Source of the DNA: Chloroflexota bacterium
Lineage (GTDB): Bacteria > Chloroflexota > Anaerolineae > Promineifilales > Promineifilaceae
Assembly: GCA_024223125.1 (NCBI GenBank)
Contig: JAAEOP010000963.1
Coordinates: 1 to 5,969, forward strand
Direction of reading: 5' to 3'
Length of the DNA stretch: 5,969 nucleotides
The translations under genes were made by a program, and so were the position numbers. Positions 1-5,969 of the stretch are shown in pieces (within the stretch, counting starts at the first letter, position 1; every line of letters begins with the position of its first letter). Under the pieces are notes generated by a model. It saw only the letters and a list, made by a program, of their open reading frames with translations, made no database searches and was not told the origin of the DNA.

Positions 1-36
1 TCAGAATCGTTTTTTGAGCCGTTACCTGAATAGGTG

Positions 37-69
37 AGAGATTGGAGATTAAACCCATCTCCAATCTCT
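37..69. repeat. 13-bp perfect hairpin
   Basis: Positions 37-49 (AGAGATTGGAGAT) are the exact reverse complement of 57-69, leaving a 7-nt loop. No T run follows, so it is not a classical intrinsic terminator for + strand transcription. The outer hexamers 21-26 (GTTACC) and 73-78 (GGTAAC) are also complementary and could extend it with internal loops. It could be the end of an upstream transcript or an intergenic palindromic repeat. The AGATTGG/CCAATCT arm sequence recurs in the hairpin after polA (5821-5853). Confidence 0.6.
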
Positions 70-72
70 AAT

Positions 73-169
73 GGTAACCAGTCAGGTGCCCGGCACTTCA
101 TTACCAAGTCTACTGGAGTAGCACACTCGTTTATAAGTGCCAGGCACCTTGGGGGAGTGAATGGTTACC
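73..169. repeat. Composite REP-like palindromic element
   Basis: The core is an inverted repeat of 15 bp with one mismatch, 84-98 (AGGTGCCCGGCACTT) against 135-149 (AAGTGCCAGGCACCT); the mismatch is c91/a142. It is flanked by a second inverted pair, GGTAACCA at 73-80 and TGGTTACC at 162-169, and encloses a small stem at 110-113/118-121. Each 15-mer arm is itself nearly palindromic. The arms match the consensus of the hairpin just before polA (2950-2982), so both probably belong to one dispersed palindromic repeat family of this genome. That family membership is inferred from two loci only. Confidence 0.6.
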
Positions 170-253
170 TCTAATGAGTGCATACAGAATTTGTCTCCCA
201 AGTTTTGCTCCTGTACGCCCATATGGAATGATGGGTGACGGCCGTTTTTCAGG

Positions 254-259
254 TACAAT
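254..259 (+). promoter_or_regulatory. Probable -10 box of the NACHT gene
   Basis: TACAAT lies 42 nt before the ATG and matches the sigma-70 -10 consensus at five of six positions. No good -35 is visible at the usual spacing; GTGACG at 235-240 is too close. The local sequence GGTACAAT is repeated exactly at the polA candidate promoter (2809-2816), which supports both weakly. Confidence 0.4.
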
Positions 260-289
260 GGACGGTATGGTGCTGATGTTGATGGAAGT

Positions 290-294
290 GAGGG
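290..294 (+). promoter_or_regulatory. Ribosome binding site, NACHT gene
   Basis: GAGGG followed by AATTTAT and ATG gives a 7-nt spacing. It is a good Shine-Dalgarno match and fixes the start at 302 rather than at a later methionine. Confidence 0.7.
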
Positions 295-301
295 AATTTA
301 T

Positions 302-2626
302 ATGCCGGTCAAAGCCAACCAACAAGATGACATAGACAGAGCAATTGCAGAAAAGGCGGAATGGTTGTGGGAGGGTTACGGCCGTTCATTCCTACAAACC
401 CACAACATTCCTGATTGGGATGAAGTCCGGTGGCAAGCGGCCGCAGTTGATGACCTGACTTACCTCTACAACCGCGTACAGGCGCTGCATGTGTTGGGGC
501 AGGGACAGGCTACGCTGGAGAAATTGTATACCCAGGTATATTTGCTGAAAGAAAGAGATGCGTTTGTCCGTTTTGGCGAAGACGTCGTGCGACCTGGCAC
601 CTGGGTAGGGCGTTTCTCCTCTCACAAAGGGGACAAGCAGGATGGGGCACAATTGGCTGCGGCCGTAGACAGACTTTACATTTTGGGGCAGCCGGGTGCA
701 GGCAAGACTACTTTTCTCAAACAAATTGCACGGGAAGCAACGCTGGGCAAGATAGTTGGCTGGCCGATGTTTGTACCTTTGGTGGAAGTGGCCCAAGCGA
801 AACAGACGATTGCCGAGTTTATCACGGCGCAGTTTGCGGCGGCGGAACTACCTGAGGCTGAATCATTGACCCGGTTCTTGTTAAAACAAAGGGGATTACT
901 GCTCTTGTTGGATGGCTTGGATGAAGTGCCCCAGGAGCATAACCAACGGCGGCAAATCATTCGGGATATTGAAGGATTATCTTTGCGCCATACCCAATGC
1001 AAGCTGTTGCTGACTTGCCGTAATGCAGCGGCTGATTATCGCTTTACCCGCTTTCAGTATGCAGAAATTGCTGAATTTAATGAATCCCAAATTCAGATTT
1101 TTATCCAAAACTGGTTTGGCAAAGAACAAGCGGAGACGGCAGTTGCTTGTTTCCAGACTTTAACAGAGACAGACACGCTTAAAGAAATGGCGCGGGTTCC
1201 CCTGCTGTTGACATTGTTGTGTTTGTCTTATGATCTGGATAAAGGGTTTCCACCAGGACGGGCAAACATTTACCGGCAAGCTGTGGATGGCTTGCTGCAA
1301 AGATGGGATAAGATGCGTGGTATTGACCGTGATCCAATTGCCGGTTTAGCGGTTAGTCAGAATGCAGAACTGTTGGCTTATCTGGCTCACGAGACTTTTT
1401 TGGATGGGCACCAATTGATTGCCGGGCATGATTTAGTGTGGCGCATTGAGAACCGCTGCCAGGCGGAATATGATAAACAGGTAGATGGCAAAGAATGGCT
1501 GCGCCAGGTAGAAGCGAATACTGGTTTGCTGCTAGAAAGAACGGCGGATGTATATGCCTTCGCCCACCTAACATTACATGAATATTTGACAGCTTGGTGG
1601 ACTATCTTTAAAGAAAGTTGGGATAAGTTTCAACCACATATAGCTGATGGCCGTTGGCGGGAAGTGCTGCTGTTAATGGCCGTACTGCCCCCAGATGCGA
1701 CTCTTTATTTGCAATTATTCCTGGATGAAATGCAGCGGATGGCGGCCGATGAAAAGATAGCTGCGCTTTTGAATTGGGGAGCCGTAAAAAGTACGCAAAG
1801 CGGCGGACTTCGCCCTGCCGCTTTGCGTACTTTTTACCTCGACCGCGACCTCGACCGCGTCCTCGACCGCGACCTCGCCCGCGTCCTCGCCCTCGACCTC
1901 GGCCACGACCACGACCACGACCGCGATCTCGCCCTCGCCCTCGACCTCGCCCTCGCCGTCGACCGCGACCTCGACCTCGACCGCGACCTCGCCCGCGATC
2001 TCGACCTCGACCTCGACCTCGACCTCGACCTCGCCCTCGACCGCCGCGACCTCGCCCTCGACCTCGACCGCGCCATCGCCCGCGCCCGCGCCCGCGACCG
2101 CGATCACGACCTCGCCCTCGACCTCGACTTCGACCGCGACCGTACCCTCGACCGCGCCCTCGCCTTCGCCCGCGCCCTCGCCCTCGCCCACACCTACGGC
2201 CCACTGCTCGCCCTCGATTATTTGTTAACCATAGGGGTATTGGTTATGCAGGCGGTGCTGCGTTATGGACAGGAGGTTGTCAATGAGGCTGTGGTGATGG
2301 AGTTGAATCGTTTACGCAGCACGTTACAGGAGTTGAGTGTGGCGGCCGATTTACCGGAACTAACGGCCGCTTGCCAACAATTGACTGTGCCCTCAGCCAT
2401 TGCCTCGGATGCAACATGGAAAACGTTTGCCCAGCAGTTTATCCATCTGGCCCAAACCCAACGGGATATGGGCCGGGAATGGCATTTGAACCAGGAACAG
2501 GTGGATTTGCTGGTGAAATACCTGGAAGCCAACCTGCTGTTTGTGGAATGTCTCAATCTGGCCTATGTGCCCAACCGGGAAGCAATCGAAAACCAGATTT
2601 TGCTGCCGCCGGGTTGGCCTGAATGA
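302..2626 (+). CDS. NACHT-domain STAND NTPase with Leu/Arg-Asp/Ala dipeptide tract, putative antiphage defence
   Basis: A 774-residue STAND NTPase of the NACHT class. Seen: an N-terminal helical region (1-120) with no effector fold I recognise; Walker A GQPGAGKTT (129-137); Walker B DGLDE (204-208) after a run of leucines; sensor LLLTCRN (235-241); the proline of RVPLLLTLL (P300); and FAHLTLHEYLTA (420-431), the box that typically closes a NACHT module. After a helical stretch come an in-frame palindrome-encoded segment (495-512), an alternating dipeptide tract (513-629) and a helical C-terminal domain (630-774) ending in a motif I associate with bacterial NACHT proteins (NQEQVDLLVKYLEAN, then a cysteine-containing segment). 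No signal peptide or membrane segment is evident, so it is probably cytoplasmic. Known of the family: NTP-dependent oligomerisation on sensing a trigger, with antiphage activity shown for several bacterial members. The trigger and effector here are unknown. It stands alone, with its own promoter signals and ribosome binding site. Confidence 0.88.
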   Translation: MPVKANQQDDIDRAIAEKAEWLWEGYGRSFLQTHNIPDWDEVRWQAAAVDDLTYLYNRVQALHVLGQGQATLEKLYTQVYLLKERDAFVRFGEDVVRPGTWVGRFSSHKGDKQDGAQLAAAVDRLYILGQPGAGKTTFLKQIAREATLGKIVGWPMFVPLVEVAQAKQTIAEFITAQFAAAELPEAESLTRFLLKQRGLLLLLDGLDEVPQEHNQRRQIIRDIEGLSLRHTQCKLLLTCRNAAADYRFTRFQYAEIAEFNESQIQIFIQNWFGKEQAETAVACFQTLTETDTLKEMARVPLLLTLLCLSYDLDKGFPPGRANIYRQAVDGLLQRWDKMRGIDRDPIAGLAVSQNAELLAYLAHETFLDGHQLIAGHDLVWRIENRCQAEYDKQVDGKEWLRQVEANTGLLLERTADVYAFAHLTLHEYLTAWWTIFKESWDKFQPHIADGRWREVLLLMAVLPPDATLYLQLFLDEMQRMAADEKIAALLNWGAVKSTQSGGLRPAALRTFYLDRDLDRVLDRDLARVLALDLGHDHDHDRDLALALDLALAVDRDLDLDRDLARDLDLDLDLDLDLALDRRDLALDLDRAIARARARDRDHDLALDLDFDRDRTLDRALAFARALALAHTYGPLLALDYLLTIGVLVMQAVLRYGQEVVNEAVVMELNRLRSTLQELSVAADLPELTAACQQLTVPSAIASDATWKTFAQQFIHLAQTQRDMGREWHLNQEQVDLLVKYLEANLLFVECLNLAYVPNREAIENQILLPPGWPE
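1784..1837. repeat. 54-bp palindrome translated in frame inside the NACHT gene
   Basis: Arms 1784-1804 and 1817-1837 are perfect 21-bp reverse complements around a 12-nt centre (1805-1816). The unit is exactly 18 codons and starts on a codon boundary, adding VKSTQSGGLRPAALRTFY (residues 495-512) without shifting the frame. Because it is a palindrome, the opposite strand reads an almost identical peptide (VKSTQSG...AALRTFY). It ends one base before the hexamer tract begins. The A5 and T5 runs at the outer parts of the arms also give it the form of a bidirectional intrinsic terminator. It resembles in kind, not in sequence, the Rickettsia palindromic elements that insert in frame into genes. 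Confidence 0.85.
1838..2188 (+). repeat. Hexanucleotide tract CNCGNC encoding (Leu/Arg/His)-(Asp/Ala)
   Basis: 58 hexamers plus one extra CGC codon (2042-2044, giving Arg-Arg) make 351 bp and 117 codons in the NACHT frame. 50 of the 58 hexamers fit CNCGNC. The first residue of the pair is Leu 32, Arg 18, His 4, Phe 2, Val 1, Ile 1; the second is Asp 34, Ala 20, Val 2, Gly 1, Thr 1. 113 of 117 codons end in C, unlike the mixed third positions elsewhere in the gene. The pattern decays after 2188 (HTYG, then LALD) into ordinary sequence. Only this frame gives proteins that continue sensibly on both sides. The length of such a tract is likely to vary between strains in two-codon steps. Confidence 0.93.
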
Positions 2627-2627
2627 G

Positions 2628-2695
2628 TACAACAGATTCAGGAAAAAACAGATGATGGTTGTCAAAAAAATCTGTTTATTCCTTCATCTGTTGTA
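2628..2695. terminator. Long imperfect hairpin after the NACHT gene, possible terminator
   Basis: Arms 2628-2653 and 2670-2695 pair in one continuous register at 23 of 26 positions (mismatches at 2638, 2639 and 2645), with a 16-nt loop. It begins one base after the NACHT stop codon. There is no T run after the right arm, so the terminator role is inferred from its position; a rho-independent signal is not clear. It could instead be a small palindromic mobile element, since ACAGATGA/TCATCTGT offers a second pairing. Confidence 0.45.
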
Positions 2696-2715
2696 GTCTC
2701 CAAAAAGAGTGACCC

Positions 2716-2770
2716 TCCTCCCGGAGGTTCCGTCTAAAATGGTAGATTTCAGCTTAAACCTCCAGGAGGA
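2716..2770. repeat. Imperfect palindrome with TCCTCC arms
   Basis: Positions 2716-2729 (TCCTCCCGGAGGTT) pair with 2757-2770 (AACCTCCAGGAGGA) with one mismatch, and short inner pairs 2734-2735/2751-2752 and 2737-2740/2746-2749 keep the same register. Each arm is itself a small palindrome. The function is unknown. The GGAGG strings resemble Shine-Dalgarno sequences, but no convincing gene follows them. Confidence 0.5.
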
Positions 2771-2807
2771 TTATCGCACCCCGCCCCCGGTGCGAACATC
2801 TGTTTTA

Positions 2808-2816
2808 TGGTACAAT
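2808..2816 (+). promoter_or_regulatory. Probable extended -10 promoter of polA
   Basis: TGGTACAAT combines a TGN extension with TACAAT, an arrangement that can work without a good -35, and none is seen. It would give a polA leader of roughly 175 nt. A 7-bp stem (2774-2780/2789-2795) sits over the expected -35 region and might affect polymerase access; that is speculative. Confidence 0.4.
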
Positions 2817-2871
2817 CACCCCCATTCACAGCCCCCAACCGGCGCCACAACCATAATCGCGGGCCAAACCA

Positions 2872-2934
2872 GGGCGAGACAGGCGGGTGAAAAGGTAAGA
2901 CATTTGGCGAAGATAATAACCGCCTGTCCCGTCC
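2872..2934 (+). promoter_or_regulatory. Stem in the polA leader
   Basis: Positions 2872-2886 pair with 2920-2934 at 14 of 15 positions, counting one G-T wobble, with mismatch a2877/c2929. They include a 9-bp perfect block (GACAGGCGG with CCGCCTGTC). The 33-nt loop is purine-rich. If transcription starts near 2822, this lies in the 5' untranslated region of polA. I do not recognise a riboswitch class in it. Confidence 0.35.
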
Positions 2935-2949
2935 CTACTATATTTGTAG

Positions 2950-2982
2950 AAGTCCCCGGCACTTTGGAAGTGCCGGGGACTT
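2950..2982. repeat. Perfect 15-bp REP-like hairpin just before polA
   Basis: AAGTCCCCGGCACTT (2950-2964) and AAGTGCCGGGGACTT (2968-2982) are exact reverse complements with a 3-nt loop. The right arm matches the consensus of the arms at 84-98 and 135-149, so I infer one dispersed repeat family. It ends 16 nt before the polA ATG, directly next to the ribosome binding site, so it may influence translation initiation if transcribed. Confidence 0.75.
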
Positions 2983-2987
2983 GAGAG

Positions 2988-2993
2988 ATAGGT
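2988..2993 (+). promoter_or_regulatory. Ribosome binding site, polA
   Basis: ATAGGT includes AGG and lies 5 nt before the ATG at 2999; a further purine-rich GAGAG sits at 2983-2987. The match is modest, but the start is supported by the conserved N-terminus that follows (VLIDGHALAYR), which begins where DNA polymerase I proteins normally begin. Confidence 0.5.
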
Positions 2994-2998
2994 AATTT

Positions 2999-5800
2999 AT
3001 GTCTGAAAATAAACTGGTTTTAATAGACGGCCATGCCCTGGCTTACCGCATGTTTTATGCGCTGCCGTTGCAGGCGTTCAGCACCAAAGCAGGCGAACCA
3101 ACCAACGCCACCTATGGCTTTATCCGCACCGTGTTAGAGCGTCTTCTGGCCGACAACCCGCCCCATTATTTCGCCATCAGCTTTGATTTGGGCAAAACAT
3201 TCCGGGATGAGATGTTTGCCGACTACAAAGGGACGCGGGAAAAGATGCCCGACGAACTGCGGTCCCAAATTGAGCGCATTAAGGAAGTGGTGGCCGCACT
3301 CAACATCCCCATTTTGGAGTTGGAAGGGTATGAGGCGGATGATGTGTTGGGAACCATCGCCGCCCAGGCCAAGCCGCACCATGTGCCGGTGCAAATCATC
3401 ACCGGCGACCGGGATTTGCTGCAATTGGTGGACGAGAATACGTTGGTGGAACTGCCGCCGCGCCGGGGGAATGACCAGCCAGATTTATACGACGCGGCTA
3501 AGGTGGAAGCGTATTTTGGGGTACGGCCGAATCAAGTCGTAGATTGGAAGGCGATGGTTGGCGACAGCAGCGACAACATCCCCGGTGTAAAAGGGGTGGG
3601 CCAGAAAACGGCCACCAAACTGCTGCTTGAGTACGGCACATTGGATGGCGTCTATGAAAACATTGAAGCCATTAAAGGGGCGCTGAAAAAGAAATTGGAA
3701 GCGGGTCGGGAAAACGCTTACCTGAGCCAGAAACTGGCCCGCATCGTCACCGACGCGCCGATTGCGTTGGATTTGGCTGCGTGTGTGGCTCATGATTTTG
3801 ATGCGGCCGTTGTCCTGGAGCTGTTCCGCGAATTAGAATTCCGTTCCTTGACTAATTTGCTGCTGGAACGGGTACAGGCGGCCGCTGATCTGGCCGAACC
3901 GCAGTCAGCCCAGCCGGGCACAGAATTGACCATCGTGCAAACAGAAGCGCAGTTGGCCGACCTGGCAGAGAAGTTGAACACGGCCGATTTGATTGCCTTC
4001 GATGTGGAAACGACCAGCCTGAACAAGATGACGGCCGAGGTTGTGGGCATTTGTCTGGCCGTAGAGCCGCCGGGAGGATATTACATTCCGGTGGGACATC
4101 TGGCTAACCAGGAGCAGGCACAGACGGGACAGATGGGCTTGTTTGCCGGGCAGCCAGAACTGGCGGCCGACCAACTGCCGTGGGAGATGGTGCGGGCGGC
4201 GATTAAACCGGCATTGACCAATCCAGCCATTGGCAAAGTGGCCCATAATGCTAAGTATGATTTCATCATTTTGCAGCGGCATGGGTTGACAGTGACGCCC
4301 ATCATTTTTGACACGATGATTGCCGAATGGTTGACCGACCCGGCCACCAGGCATAAGGGGTTGAAGGATTTGACCTTTCACCGGCTGGGCATCCAGATGA
4401 CAGAGATTTCGTCGTTGATTGGCAAGGGGAAGAAGCAGCGGCCGTTTAGCGAAGTGCCTATTGAAGACGCCGCTCCCTATGGCGCGGCCGACGCCGATAT
4501 GACATTGCGATTGGTGAAACCATTACAAAAAGAGATCGCCGAGAAAAATCTGGAACGTATGTTGGAGTTGGAACTACCTTTGATTCCGGTGCTGTCGGCC
4601 ATGGAGCAGGCCGGGATTGGGGTAGATGTGCCCTTTTTGCGCCACATGTCGCAGGATATGGCCGCCCGGCTGACCCAGTTGGCACAAGAGATTCATGAGA
4701 TTGCCGGCGAGCCGTTTAACATCAACTCCACGCAGCAGTTGAGCGATGTGCTGTTTGTGACATTGGATTTCCCCAAAGAGGGATTGAAGAAGACGAAGAG
4801 CGGTTATTTCAGTACGGCCGCGGCGGTGTTACAAGGCTTAAAACAAACAGAGCAGGAAAAGAAGACGGGCATCATTAACCACATTTTGGAATTCCGAGAG
4901 TTAGGCAAGCTAAAAAGCACGTATGTGGATGCGCTGCCGGAGATGGTGAATAAGGAAGACGGCCGTATTCATACTAGCTTCAACCAGACCGGGGCCATCA
5001 CCGGGCGGCTGGCCAGCAGTAATCCCAATTTGCAAAATATTCCCATTCGCAGCCAGGTGGGGCAGCAGATTCGGCGCGGCTTTGTCGCCAATCCAGGGCA
5101 TCATTTTTTGGCTTGTGATTATTCGCAGGTGGAACTGCGGGTGCTGGCGCACATCAGCCAGGATGCGGCTTTGTTGGAAGCGTTTCGGGAGGATCAGGAT
5201 ATTCATCGGGCAACGGCCGCGGCCGTGTATAGCATTGAGCCGGAAGAGGTAACATATAATCAGCGACGTTTTGCCAAAGCGGTGAACTTTGGCCTGATTT
5301 ACGGCATGGGCGCTTTCCGGCTGGCGCGGGATTCTGACCTGACGCTGGCGGAGGCGGAAAATTACATCGCCGAATATTTTGCCCGTTTTCCCGGCATTCA
5401 AACCTATCTGGATGAGACGAAAGAGAAGGCCAAGAAAGAAGGCTACGTAGAAACGTTGCTGGGAAGGCGGCGTTACTTCCCCGTTTTTGGCGGTTCGATG
5501 ACGGGCGCCAACCGGCAGGCGTGGCTGCGGGCCGAACGGGAAGCGGTCAATCATCCCATTCAAGGCACGGCGGCCGATATTGTGAAGCTGGCGATGATTG
5601 ATTTGCATGAGAAGCTGGCCTCGTATGAAGCCCAGATGTTGCTGCAAGTGCATGATGAACTGCTTTTGGAACTGCCAGATAAGGAATTAGAAGTCGTTCA
5701 ATCATTGGTGGTGGACACAATGTCAGGCGCGTATCAACTGGATGTCCCTTTGAAGGTGGATGCCAGTGTGGGGCGCACCTGGCTGGCGTTGAAAGATTAG
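2999..5800 (+). CDS. polA: DNA polymerase I
   Basis: A complete family A polymerase of 933 residues, close to the 928 of E. coli, acting in Okazaki-fragment maturation and repair synthesis. The 5' nuclease domain (1-290) shows LIDGHALAYR (D10), GYEADD (110-115), TGDRD (135-139) and VGDSSDNIPG with the helix-hairpin-helix after it (187-215). The 3'-5' exonuclease is of the active type: DVE (335-337), N417 to D421 in AHNAKYD, and YGAAD (494-498), so proofreading should work, unlike in Taq polymerase. The polymerase domain has TGRLASSNPNLQNIP (668-682), motif A DYSQVELR (707-714, catalytic D707), motif B RRFAKAVNFGLIYG (756-769; K760, F764, Y768; F764 is the position governing dideoxynucleotide discrimination) and motif C QVHDE (883-887, catalytic D886). 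The gene probably forms its own transcript, with a structured leader and a hairpin 20 nt after the stop. I see nothing degenerate. Confidence 0.98.
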   Translation: MSENKLVLIDGHALAYRMFYALPLQAFSTKAGEPTNATYGFIRTVLERLLADNPPHYFAISFDLGKTFRDEMFADYKGTREKMPDELRSQIERIKEVVAALNIPILELEGYEADDVLGTIAAQAKPHHVPVQIITGDRDLLQLVDENTLVELPPRRGNDQPDLYDAAKVEAYFGVRPNQVVDWKAMVGDSSDNIPGVKGVGQKTATKLLLEYGTLDGVYENIEAIKGALKKKLEAGRENAYLSQKLARIVTDAPIALDLAACVAHDFDAAVVLELFRELEFRSLTNLLLERVQAAADLAEPQSAQPGTELTIVQTEAQLADLAEKLNTADLIAFDVETTSLNKMTAEVVGICLAVEPPGGYYIPVGHLANQEQAQTGQMGLFAGQPELAADQLPWEMVRAAIKPALTNPAIGKVAHNAKYDFIILQRHGLTVTPIIFDTMIAEWLTDPATRHKGLKDLTFHRLGIQMTEISSLIGKGKKQRPFSEVPIEDAAPYGAADADMTLRLVKPLQKEIAEKNLERMLELELPLIPVLSAMEQAGIGVDVPFLRHMSQDMAARLTQLAQEIHEIAGEPFNINSTQQLSDVLFVTLDFPKEGLKKTKSGYFSTAAAVLQGLKQTEQEKKTGIINHILEFRELGKLKSTYVDALPEMVNKEDGRIHTSFNQTGAITGRLASSNPNLQNIPIRSQVGQQIRRGFVANPGHHFLACDYSQVELRVLAHISQDAALLEAFREDQDIHRATAAAVYSIEPEEVTYNQRRFAKAVNFGLIYGMGAFRLARDSDLTLAEAENYIAEYFARFPGIQTYLDETKEKAKKEGYVETLLGRRRYFPVFGGSMTGANRQAWLRAEREAVNHPIQGTAADIVKLAMIDLHEKLASYEAQMLLQVHDELLLELPDKELEVVQSLVVDTMSGAYQLDVPLKVDASVGRTWLALKD

Positions 5801-5820
5801 GCGCTTACCTGCCAAGTTTG

Positions 5821-5853
5821 AGATTGGTTCACTCTGCCAGAGTGAACCAATCT
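5821..5853. terminator. Strong hairpin after polA
   Basis: A near-perfect palindrome: 5821-5836 (AGATTGGTTCACTCTG) is the reverse complement of 5838-5853, allowing a 15-bp stem with a 3-nt loop 20 nt after the polA stop. There is no T run after it, so termination is inferred from position and stability. The AGATTGG/CCAATCT ends also occur in the hairpin at 37-69. Confidence 0.55.
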
Positions 5854-5886
5854 ACGACTGTTAATAACTCGACGTTCGCTTAAATT

Positions 5887-5937
5887 TTGACATAAAAAGC
5901 AAATTTGGTACACCTATGAATTATGATGAGTGTACCA
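5887..5937 (+). promoter_or_regulatory. Possible promoter with overlapping operator palindrome
   Basis: TTGACA (5887-5892) is a perfect -35 box. After 16 nt comes TACACC (5909-5914), a weak -10 in a context (GGTACA) shared with the other two candidate promoters. An inverted repeat TGGTACAC (5906-5913) with GTGTACCA (5930-5937), spaced by 16 nt, covers the -10 and the expected start site, as a repressor operator would. TATGAT at 5922-5927 is a better -10 by sequence but is 29 nt from TTGACA. The regulator is unknown. Confidence 0.35.
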
Positions 5938-5969
5938 GATAAACGAATCAACTGGAAGATAATAATACA
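5923..5969 (+). CDS. Possible start of a downstream gene, cut by the window end
   Basis: From ATG at 5923 (or the next codon, ATG at 5926) the frame stays open to the window end and reads MMSVPDKRINWKIII. No Shine-Dalgarno sequence precedes it. If the promoter at 5887-5914 is real, transcription would begin almost at this ATG, suggesting a leaderless message. Fifteen codons are far too few to judge coding potential, and the product cannot be named. Charged residues followed by isoleucines could lead into a membrane segment, but this is a guess. Chance openness is the main alternative. Confidence 0.22.
   Translation, partial: MMSVPDKRINWKIII

Follow-up and report, generated by a model that had tools for sequence, protein, structure and literature searches.

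A C-ending hexamer array in a Chloroflexota NACHT-NCH2 gene and its possible use as a variable recognition surface

We analysed 5,969 nucleotides of DNA from a Chloroflexota bacterium (GenBank assembly GCA_024223125.1, contig JAAEOP010000963.1, positions 1 to 5,969, forward strand), referred to here as the window. It contains a gene for an NLR-like NACHT-NCH2 protein, within which a tract of CNCGNC hexamers encodes alternating residues; the tract is the subject of this work (Table 1). The protein matched PF05729 (NACHT) at 68.8 bits (Pfam gathering score, 26.7) and PF22727 (NCH2) at 41.4 bits (cut-off, 27; profile positions 27-96 of 96). The P-loop residues G129, P131, G132, G134, K135 and T136 and the acidic Walker B residues D204, D207 and E208 were invariant in 96 aligned sequences. 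The nearest homologues, P0001 and P0002, showed 53-58% identity, and P0002 is encoded by a gene in L001, a locus from an Anaerolineae genome. The first-pass annotation had placed the tract after the NACHT core, and we found it there, upstream of NCH2. Known sensor repeats (LRR, TPR, WD, ANK, HEAT) were not detected in the tract, as none of the 18 Pfam families with E ≤ 1 falls in it.

Table 1. Features of the window, with positions counted from its first nucleotide.
Feature	Position	Strand	Details
NACHT-NCH2 protein open reading frame (STAND NTPase, NLR-like)	302-2626	+	774 residues
NACHT NTPase domain	674-1123	+	residues 125-274; motifs GQPGAGKTT, LLLLDGLDE
Perfect inverted repeat	1784-1837	+	arms 1784-1804/1817-1837 (21 bp), 12-nt loop; directly abuts the tract
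Alternating tract, residue-only call (blind to third positions)	1826-2221	+	132 residues
CNCGNC hexamer tract	1838-2188	+	encodes alternating (L/R/H)(D/A) residues
Phase slip CGC CGC	2042-2047	+	one codon lost or gained; alternation then continues in the other parity
NCH2 (NACHT C-terminal helical domain 2)	2408-2608	+	residues 703-769
Intergenic inverted repeat	2625-2698		29 nt, 86%; terminator- or REP-like (repetitive extragenic palindrome) by eye
Intergenic inverted repeat	2950-2982		15 nt, perfect; terminator- or REP-like by eye
DNA polymerase I (polA)	2999-5800		next gene after the NACHT open reading frame
Intergenic inverted repeat	5821-5853		16 nt, perfect; terminator- or REP-like by eye

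With the single phase slip at 2042 allowed for, 50 of the 58 hexamers counted from 1838 fit CNCGNC, as first reported; the other eight are CGCGAT (three times), GTCGAC, ATCGCC, TTCGAC, CGTACC and TTCGCC. Among the 117 tract codons, the CNC class comprised CTC 32, CGC 18, CAC 4 and CCC 0, and the GNC class GAC 31, GCC 20, GTC 3 and GGC 1, which bears out the earlier remark that C never occupies the first variable site and that G occurs just once at the second. The two variable positions were mutually independent (Fisher p = 1; the 43 CNCGNC hexamers carrying T/G at the first site and A/C at the second). Third positions were C in 113/117 codons, and the G+C content was 0.76 compared to 0.51 over the remaining window. 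Tandem Repeats Finder reported 1836-2186 with period 6, 59 copies and a score of 303, identifying a hexanucleotide tandem array. Over the 132-residue call, third-position C was 0.92, compared to an amino-acid-matched expectation of 0.20 from the same gene outside the tract. Codon preference therefore cannot explain the excess. A recent block duplication in the window tract was considered and rejected, as repetition did not exceed that of shuffled orders and autocorrelation was weak only.

Variation at these two sites could also come from targeted second-position mutagenesis, for instance by a diversity-generating retroelement (DGR) acting on a CACGAC template. The variation is indeed concentrated where such a template would carry A, and NACHT proteins are known DGR partners according to passages of PMC10907252. 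However, the spectra are skewed and site-specific (T 32, G 18, A 4, C 0 at one site; A 31, C 20, T 3, G 1 at the other), first positions vary in other lineages, and only NACHT and polA were recognised in the window, with no search for reverse transcriptases made in any genome. We regard this origin as very improbable.

Third positions were compared across 57 genes chosen from loci in hand, two of which, L033 and L060, come from separate contig ends in the same genome, G036. A tract of at least 30 residues, called blind to third positions, was present in 39 of them. An excess of third-position C over the amino-acid-matched value for the rest of the same gene, at z > 5, was seen in 18 of these 39 (L041, 0.99 compared to 0.40), including AT-rich cyanobacterial tracts (L067 from Nostoc, 0.87 vs 0.20; L068, 0.83 vs 0.19; L069, 0.94 vs 0.24; L076, 0.80 vs 0.20). 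In 13 genes, such as L028, L031, L035 and L075, third-position C was at or below background (z < 1) and alternation was still called, which points to protein-level constraint. The remaining eight genes, all actinobacterial, had z values of 1.6 to 4.2. The simplest account is that arrays are born or rewritten as near-pure hexamers, after which synonymous sites drift, mostly from C to T (L015, L038), and selection maintains the residue classes. These data support the initial proposal of a DNA-level repeat combined with a protein-level filter. The paired test was blind to third positions because a codon model favouring K/M second positions and C endings is partly circular, which touches its K/M purity and the codon selection behind the proline and glycine counts in young and old tracts given below.

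GC-rich arrays use an alphabet of CTC and CGC combined with GAC and GCC, and here the claim that variation is confined to second positions holds. It does not extend to cyanobacterial members, which also vary first positions: L068 mainly combines CTC/CGC/CGA/TTC with TCC/GAC/ACC, L069 CTC/AGC with GCC/GAC/ACC, and L076 ATC/TTC/AAC/AAA with GCC/ACC. Common to young arrays are C-ending codons and a bulky or basic residue alternating with a small or acidic one. A strand-symmetric mutation model, in which T/G at one site is the counterpart of A/C at the other, was rejected (rho 0.04, 18 tracts). Net charge ranged from −17 to +37 among tracts. The upper value belongs to L116, a HEAT-type NACHT gene with a strongly basic tract at about residues 922-1111 that is built of AAARARIR-type blocks, unlike its relatives.

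Proline and glycine were scarce in seven young tracts, which include L033 and L060, the two ends from one genome: CCC made up 2/282 CNC codons and GGC 2/296 GNC codons. Set against their one-step sources, with ratios taken by hand, the counts were 2/184 for proline and 2/143 for glycine, compared to 22/593 for third-position C to T, 8/98 for Arg to His and 5/153 for Ala to Val in the same tracts. Twelve older tracts contained CCC at 19/458 and GGC at 12/468. In the tracts of 120 homologues, proline stood at 2.2% and 0.6% in the two parities compared to 3.8% elsewhere, and glycine at 0.8% and 3.8% compared to 4.7%; the residue model gives both a low emission, and these frequencies inside called tracts are lower bounds. 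A filter against proline and glycine is likely, and modest in the sample of young tracts. The suggested avoidance of helix breakers thus stands as scarcity in young tracts; across the homologues these residues are depleted, not excluded.

The tract was widespread among related proteins. A residue-only model called at least 30 residues in 108 of the 120 best homologues and at least 60 residues in 82, whereas 0/120 reached 30 residues in a shuffled-residue control. Tract length in the 120 homologues had a median of 69.5 and a maximum of 163 residues, and it exceeded 200 in some proteins found elsewhere. In 50 homologues inspected by eye, the tract lay between a conserved R(A/S)(F/Y)-like segment and NCH2. 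A search with the tract only, in which NACHT lay outside the scored region, was run on a sample (the 7996 candidates with the most shared words, limited to proteins about 425-1354 residues long). It returned 43 proteins to E 0.01, comprising 33 with NACHT, 2 with TIR, 3 with a sulfatase-modifying-factor domain and no NACHT, and 5 with none of the listed domains. One TIR protein, P0153, has the architecture LRR-tract-Roc-COR-TIR.

Within Chloroflexota, a tract pattern that allowed N at some of the variable sites matched in 5/301 genomes. The matches were in frame in NACHT-type genes of G036, G190 and G350; those in G306 and G064 fell in unrelated open reading frames, in another frame. The G190 and G350 loci belong to a second, HEAT-like family. 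The G190 fragment matched no Pfam family, and its NACHT assignment rests on the sister locus L114 (28.3 bits vs 26.7), with weak support from L116, whose NACHT match of 20.6 bits is below the 26.7 cut-off. The kinship of the G350 locus was judged by eye. A first pattern scan of genome contigs, in which one pattern was of low complexity, confirmed no relative. The NCH2 profile matched at E ≤ 1e-3 in 2/400 Chloroflexota genomes, a survey too insensitive for mapping the family.

The cyanobacterial members analysed lie on plasmids; one of them, on a Nostoc sp. MS1 plasmid (L066), is annotated as four separate pieces. In L001 (1-12297), a CHL1 homologue is found near a helicase-nuclease with EAD7, ParA and a TraG/TraD-like ATPase, which suggests a mobile element. 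Contigs G023 C302, G036 C21 and C103, and G391 C41 start or stop within tracts of this kind, some of which are for this reason probably missing from short-read assemblies. Contigs ending in a tract could also be taken as a sign that the array is an assembly artefact. We find this scarcely credible, and it is already refuted for the tract family, as tracts are present in circular complete plasmid records (L067-L069) and in 108/120 homologous proteins.

Rates of change were assessed in three pairs. The closest orthologue pair with a tract in both members, L110/L111, carries old tracts and matches L011 and L008, from two Acrocarpospora species, in tract and length. Over residues 795-918, identity was 97.6% compared to 96.0% in the core, with 3/123 residues different, a second-position difference of 0.008, and 13 synonymous and 3 non-synonymous codon changes; the called tract spans 767-918, and a 3-residue indel before 795 is outside this count. 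This old tract is under ordinary purifying selection. The more distant pair L100/L101 had 54.7% identity over residues 820-1045, compared to 83.2% in the core. For the young tracts of L041 and L114, from sister genomes G190 and G391, 258/300 flanking residues were identical. Of the 18 tract codons up to the contig end, 8 agreed in register and 14 after a shift of four hexamers (7-12 with other even shifts); C occupied every one of the 18 third positions in both. Aligning orthologues, as had been advised, gave three different outcomes: the young pair differs by a unit shift, and of the old pairs one is conserved and one diverged. The earlier claim that the tract inverts the usual purifying selection is not borne out; its frozen third positions reflect an array that is young or has been homogenised. 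The Fremyella/Tolypothrix plasmid genes yield no rate, since L071, L072 and L073 are identical and L071 and L074 contain no 30-residue tract.

Structure models bear on the form of the encoded tract. In a model of the homologue P0045, the tract forms helices at 537-558, 563-579 and 583-606 (block predicted local distance difference test, pLDDT, 49-92), and the NACHT part resembles structures of NLRC4, NLRP3 and NOD2. The model of the window protein had a mean pLDDT of 84, with blocks within 521-620 at 31-54. These models weakly favour a helical tract; the P0045 model agrees with the proposed helix compatibility, and the window's own tract is modelled with low confidence.

We propose that the tract is an in-frame hexamer array that is rewritten faster than by point mutation, is filtered for helix and serves as a variable recognition surface, a reading that we hold to have an even chance of being right. 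Replication slippage, block duplication and template switching would rearrange a small set of founder hexamers at a pace above that of point mutation. The array would thereby produce LD, LA, RD and RA pairs in fresh orders and in tracts of new length, with the reading frame intact. Block repeats of 53-70 nt in L029, L030 and L033 (with a shuffled control run for the window only) and block periodicities in some tracts speak for this, as do the unit shift between the sister genomes, the contigs that break off inside tracts and the hairpins before the tract. No one-base change in a CNC or GNC codon gives a stop. Selection would retain residues able to prolong the helical arm of NACHT as an alpha-helix and would remove most proline and glycine. 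The product would be a variable charged helical surface beside the NTPase switch, at the site of NLR sensor repeats, and we infer that it takes part in recognition, most likely of an invader-derived or host-partner molecule.

Several observations weigh against this proposal. The L110/L111 tract is stable but for its one 3-residue indel. Hexamer order in the window was near-random, with a longest exact repeat of 28 nt that was reached in 39/100 shuffled orders. Among actinobacterial NACHT relatives of P0123, 15/29 loci (L084-L112) have no tract, so the tract is dispensable in some lineages. The window tract was modelled at pLDDT below 50 at 524-585 and 600-616, which makes the helix reading dependent on P0045. 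The rates of change come from other loci, as the search turned up no close orthologue of the window gene.

The array could instead be an adjustable spacer that sets only how long or how stiff a helical or charged linker from the NACHT arm to NCH2 is, with residue order irrelevant. Near-random hexamer order in the window, the wide range of tract lengths and the spread of net charge would all fit such a role. On the other hand, L110 and L111 keep residue classes and nearly all residues, and strict alternation over 100-200 residues is not needed for a pure spacer. We judge the spacer explanation to be unlikely, though a serious competitor. Neutral, microsatellite-like expansion in a permissive loop, with alternation as a by-product of the hexamer unit, is in our view improbable. 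It would account for the near-total third-position C in young arrays, since every young array observed uses C-ending codons whatever the genome composition, and for the strong change in L100/L101. The block repeats are also in line with it. However, neutrality does not fit alternation that is still called in genes with synonymous sites at or below background, the excess of synonymous over non-synonymous changes in L110/L111, or tract-only matches that are mainly NACHT proteins and include P0153.

Immediately upstream of the hexamer array, and outside the interval of the first-pass annotation, lies the perfect hairpin of Table 1. Its arms encode VKSTQSG and AALRTFY, and RNA folding of the segment gave z −7.5. 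We scanned 126 nt around the tract start and observed perfect stems of at least 16 bp in 5/39 tract genes (window, 21; L015, 21; L033, 17; L029, 16; L030, 16) compared to 4-10 bp in the other 34; cyanobacterial, HEAT-type and actinobacterial tract genes among the 39 had no comparable stem. Twelve related Chloroflexota genes were compared to 400 random synonymous versions each, in a set that leaves out L014 and L035 (stems 6 and 7) and L060, whose contig begins in the tract. For each of the five hairpin genes, the observed stem was reached by 0/400 versions. The other seven had stems of 5-10, reached by 10, 21 and 25 of 400 versions in L028, L034 and L038 and by at least 256 in the remaining four. 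Among 545 other coding segments of 147 nt, none reached a stem of 14. Downstream of the tract, stems were only 6-9 (7 of 9 genes that allowed examination).

Hairpin sequences differ among the five genes, all of which have third-position C of 0.69-1.00 in their tracts. The arms were in codon register in the window, L015, L029 and L030; among these four, 10/15 compared pairs covary with both sides changed, and every pair is Watson-Crick. Template switching can create such stems in one event and can yield multibase compensation (PMC8794818). We infer a locus that readily undergoes template switching during replication, a process that could rewrite the array as well. It is alternatively possible, if doubtful, that the hairpin is kept for a structure formed in RNA or DNA, acting in pausing, in attenuation or as a site of recombination, and is not a template-switch footprint. 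The perfect stem, its folding score and the covarying pairs would be expected of a conserved structure. Yet only 5 of the 12 related genes carry it, L081 and L013 have no comparable stem in spite of third-position C of 0.84 and 0.75, the stem of L033 lies further upstream, and multibase compensation is obtainable from template switching alone (PMC8794818).

A broader version of our proposal is that the tract is a diversification device free of reverse transcriptase and shared by Chloroflexota, Cyanobacteriota, Acidobacteriota and Actinomycetota. Its two-residue units would each carry about two binary choices and be rewritten by slippage or template switching, with a hairpin as switch point in some genes, to form a charged helical recognition surface. 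We put this forward tentatively and consider it rather unlikely in full. Our data point to a little-noticed way of making immune-type proteins variable across several bacterial phyla. To our knowledge, how bacterial NLR relatives acquire and renew target specificity has been explained only in cases linked to DGRs or repeat scaffolds. Should the arrays prove to differ among strains and to set targets, they would be a simple, stop-proof, frame-proof and easily scored source of receptor variants. The hairpins would tie a local mutational mechanism to receptor diversity in testable form.

The window protein resembles bacterial NLR-related proteins (bNACHT, antiviral STAND) in its NACHT core with Walker motifs and its helical C-terminal part, and the core of the P0045 model is like NLRC4 and NLRP3. 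It differs from them in carrying a dipeptide array, and no named antiphage family passed its cut-off (NCBIfam DS8, 21.2 bits vs 790; PADLOC, only mad8, E 0.0087). The systems closest in kind are the repeat arrays of fungal NLRs and the NACHT sensors linked to DGRs. In fungal NLRs, passages of PMC4986451 describe WD, ANK or TPR repeats with high internal conservation, which share with the tract a sensor-side intragenic array, length polymorphism, homogenised copies and variation at few positions; their unit is a whole structural repeat, whereas here it is six bases, or two residues, with no matching Pfam repeat family. DGR-diversified sensors likewise place a variable target-facing part on a bacterial NACHT protein (passages of PMC10907252), but the spectrum of the window tract misfits adenine mutagenesis, and no reverse transcriptase was recognised in the window. 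Perfect coding palindromes are described for nematomorph mitochondria in parts of PMC6649704, and these and template-switch hairpins (parts of PMC8794818) are similar in having perfect inverted repeats in conserved coding sequence with multibase compensatory changes. Unlike them, the window hairpin adjoins a hexamer array in a bacterial immune-type gene. Such tracts were not described in the titles and abstract openings of the full-text literature searched, whose scope excludes most subscription papers and preprints, or in passages of PMC7159879, PMC10907252, PMC8195603 and PMC4986451.

The neighbouring gene was considered as the partner of a system and rejected, as it encodes DNA polymerase I and is unrelated. 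No Rfam family reached its gathering score in the window. The window holds seven inverted-repeat pairs, and three besides the hairpin are intergenic.

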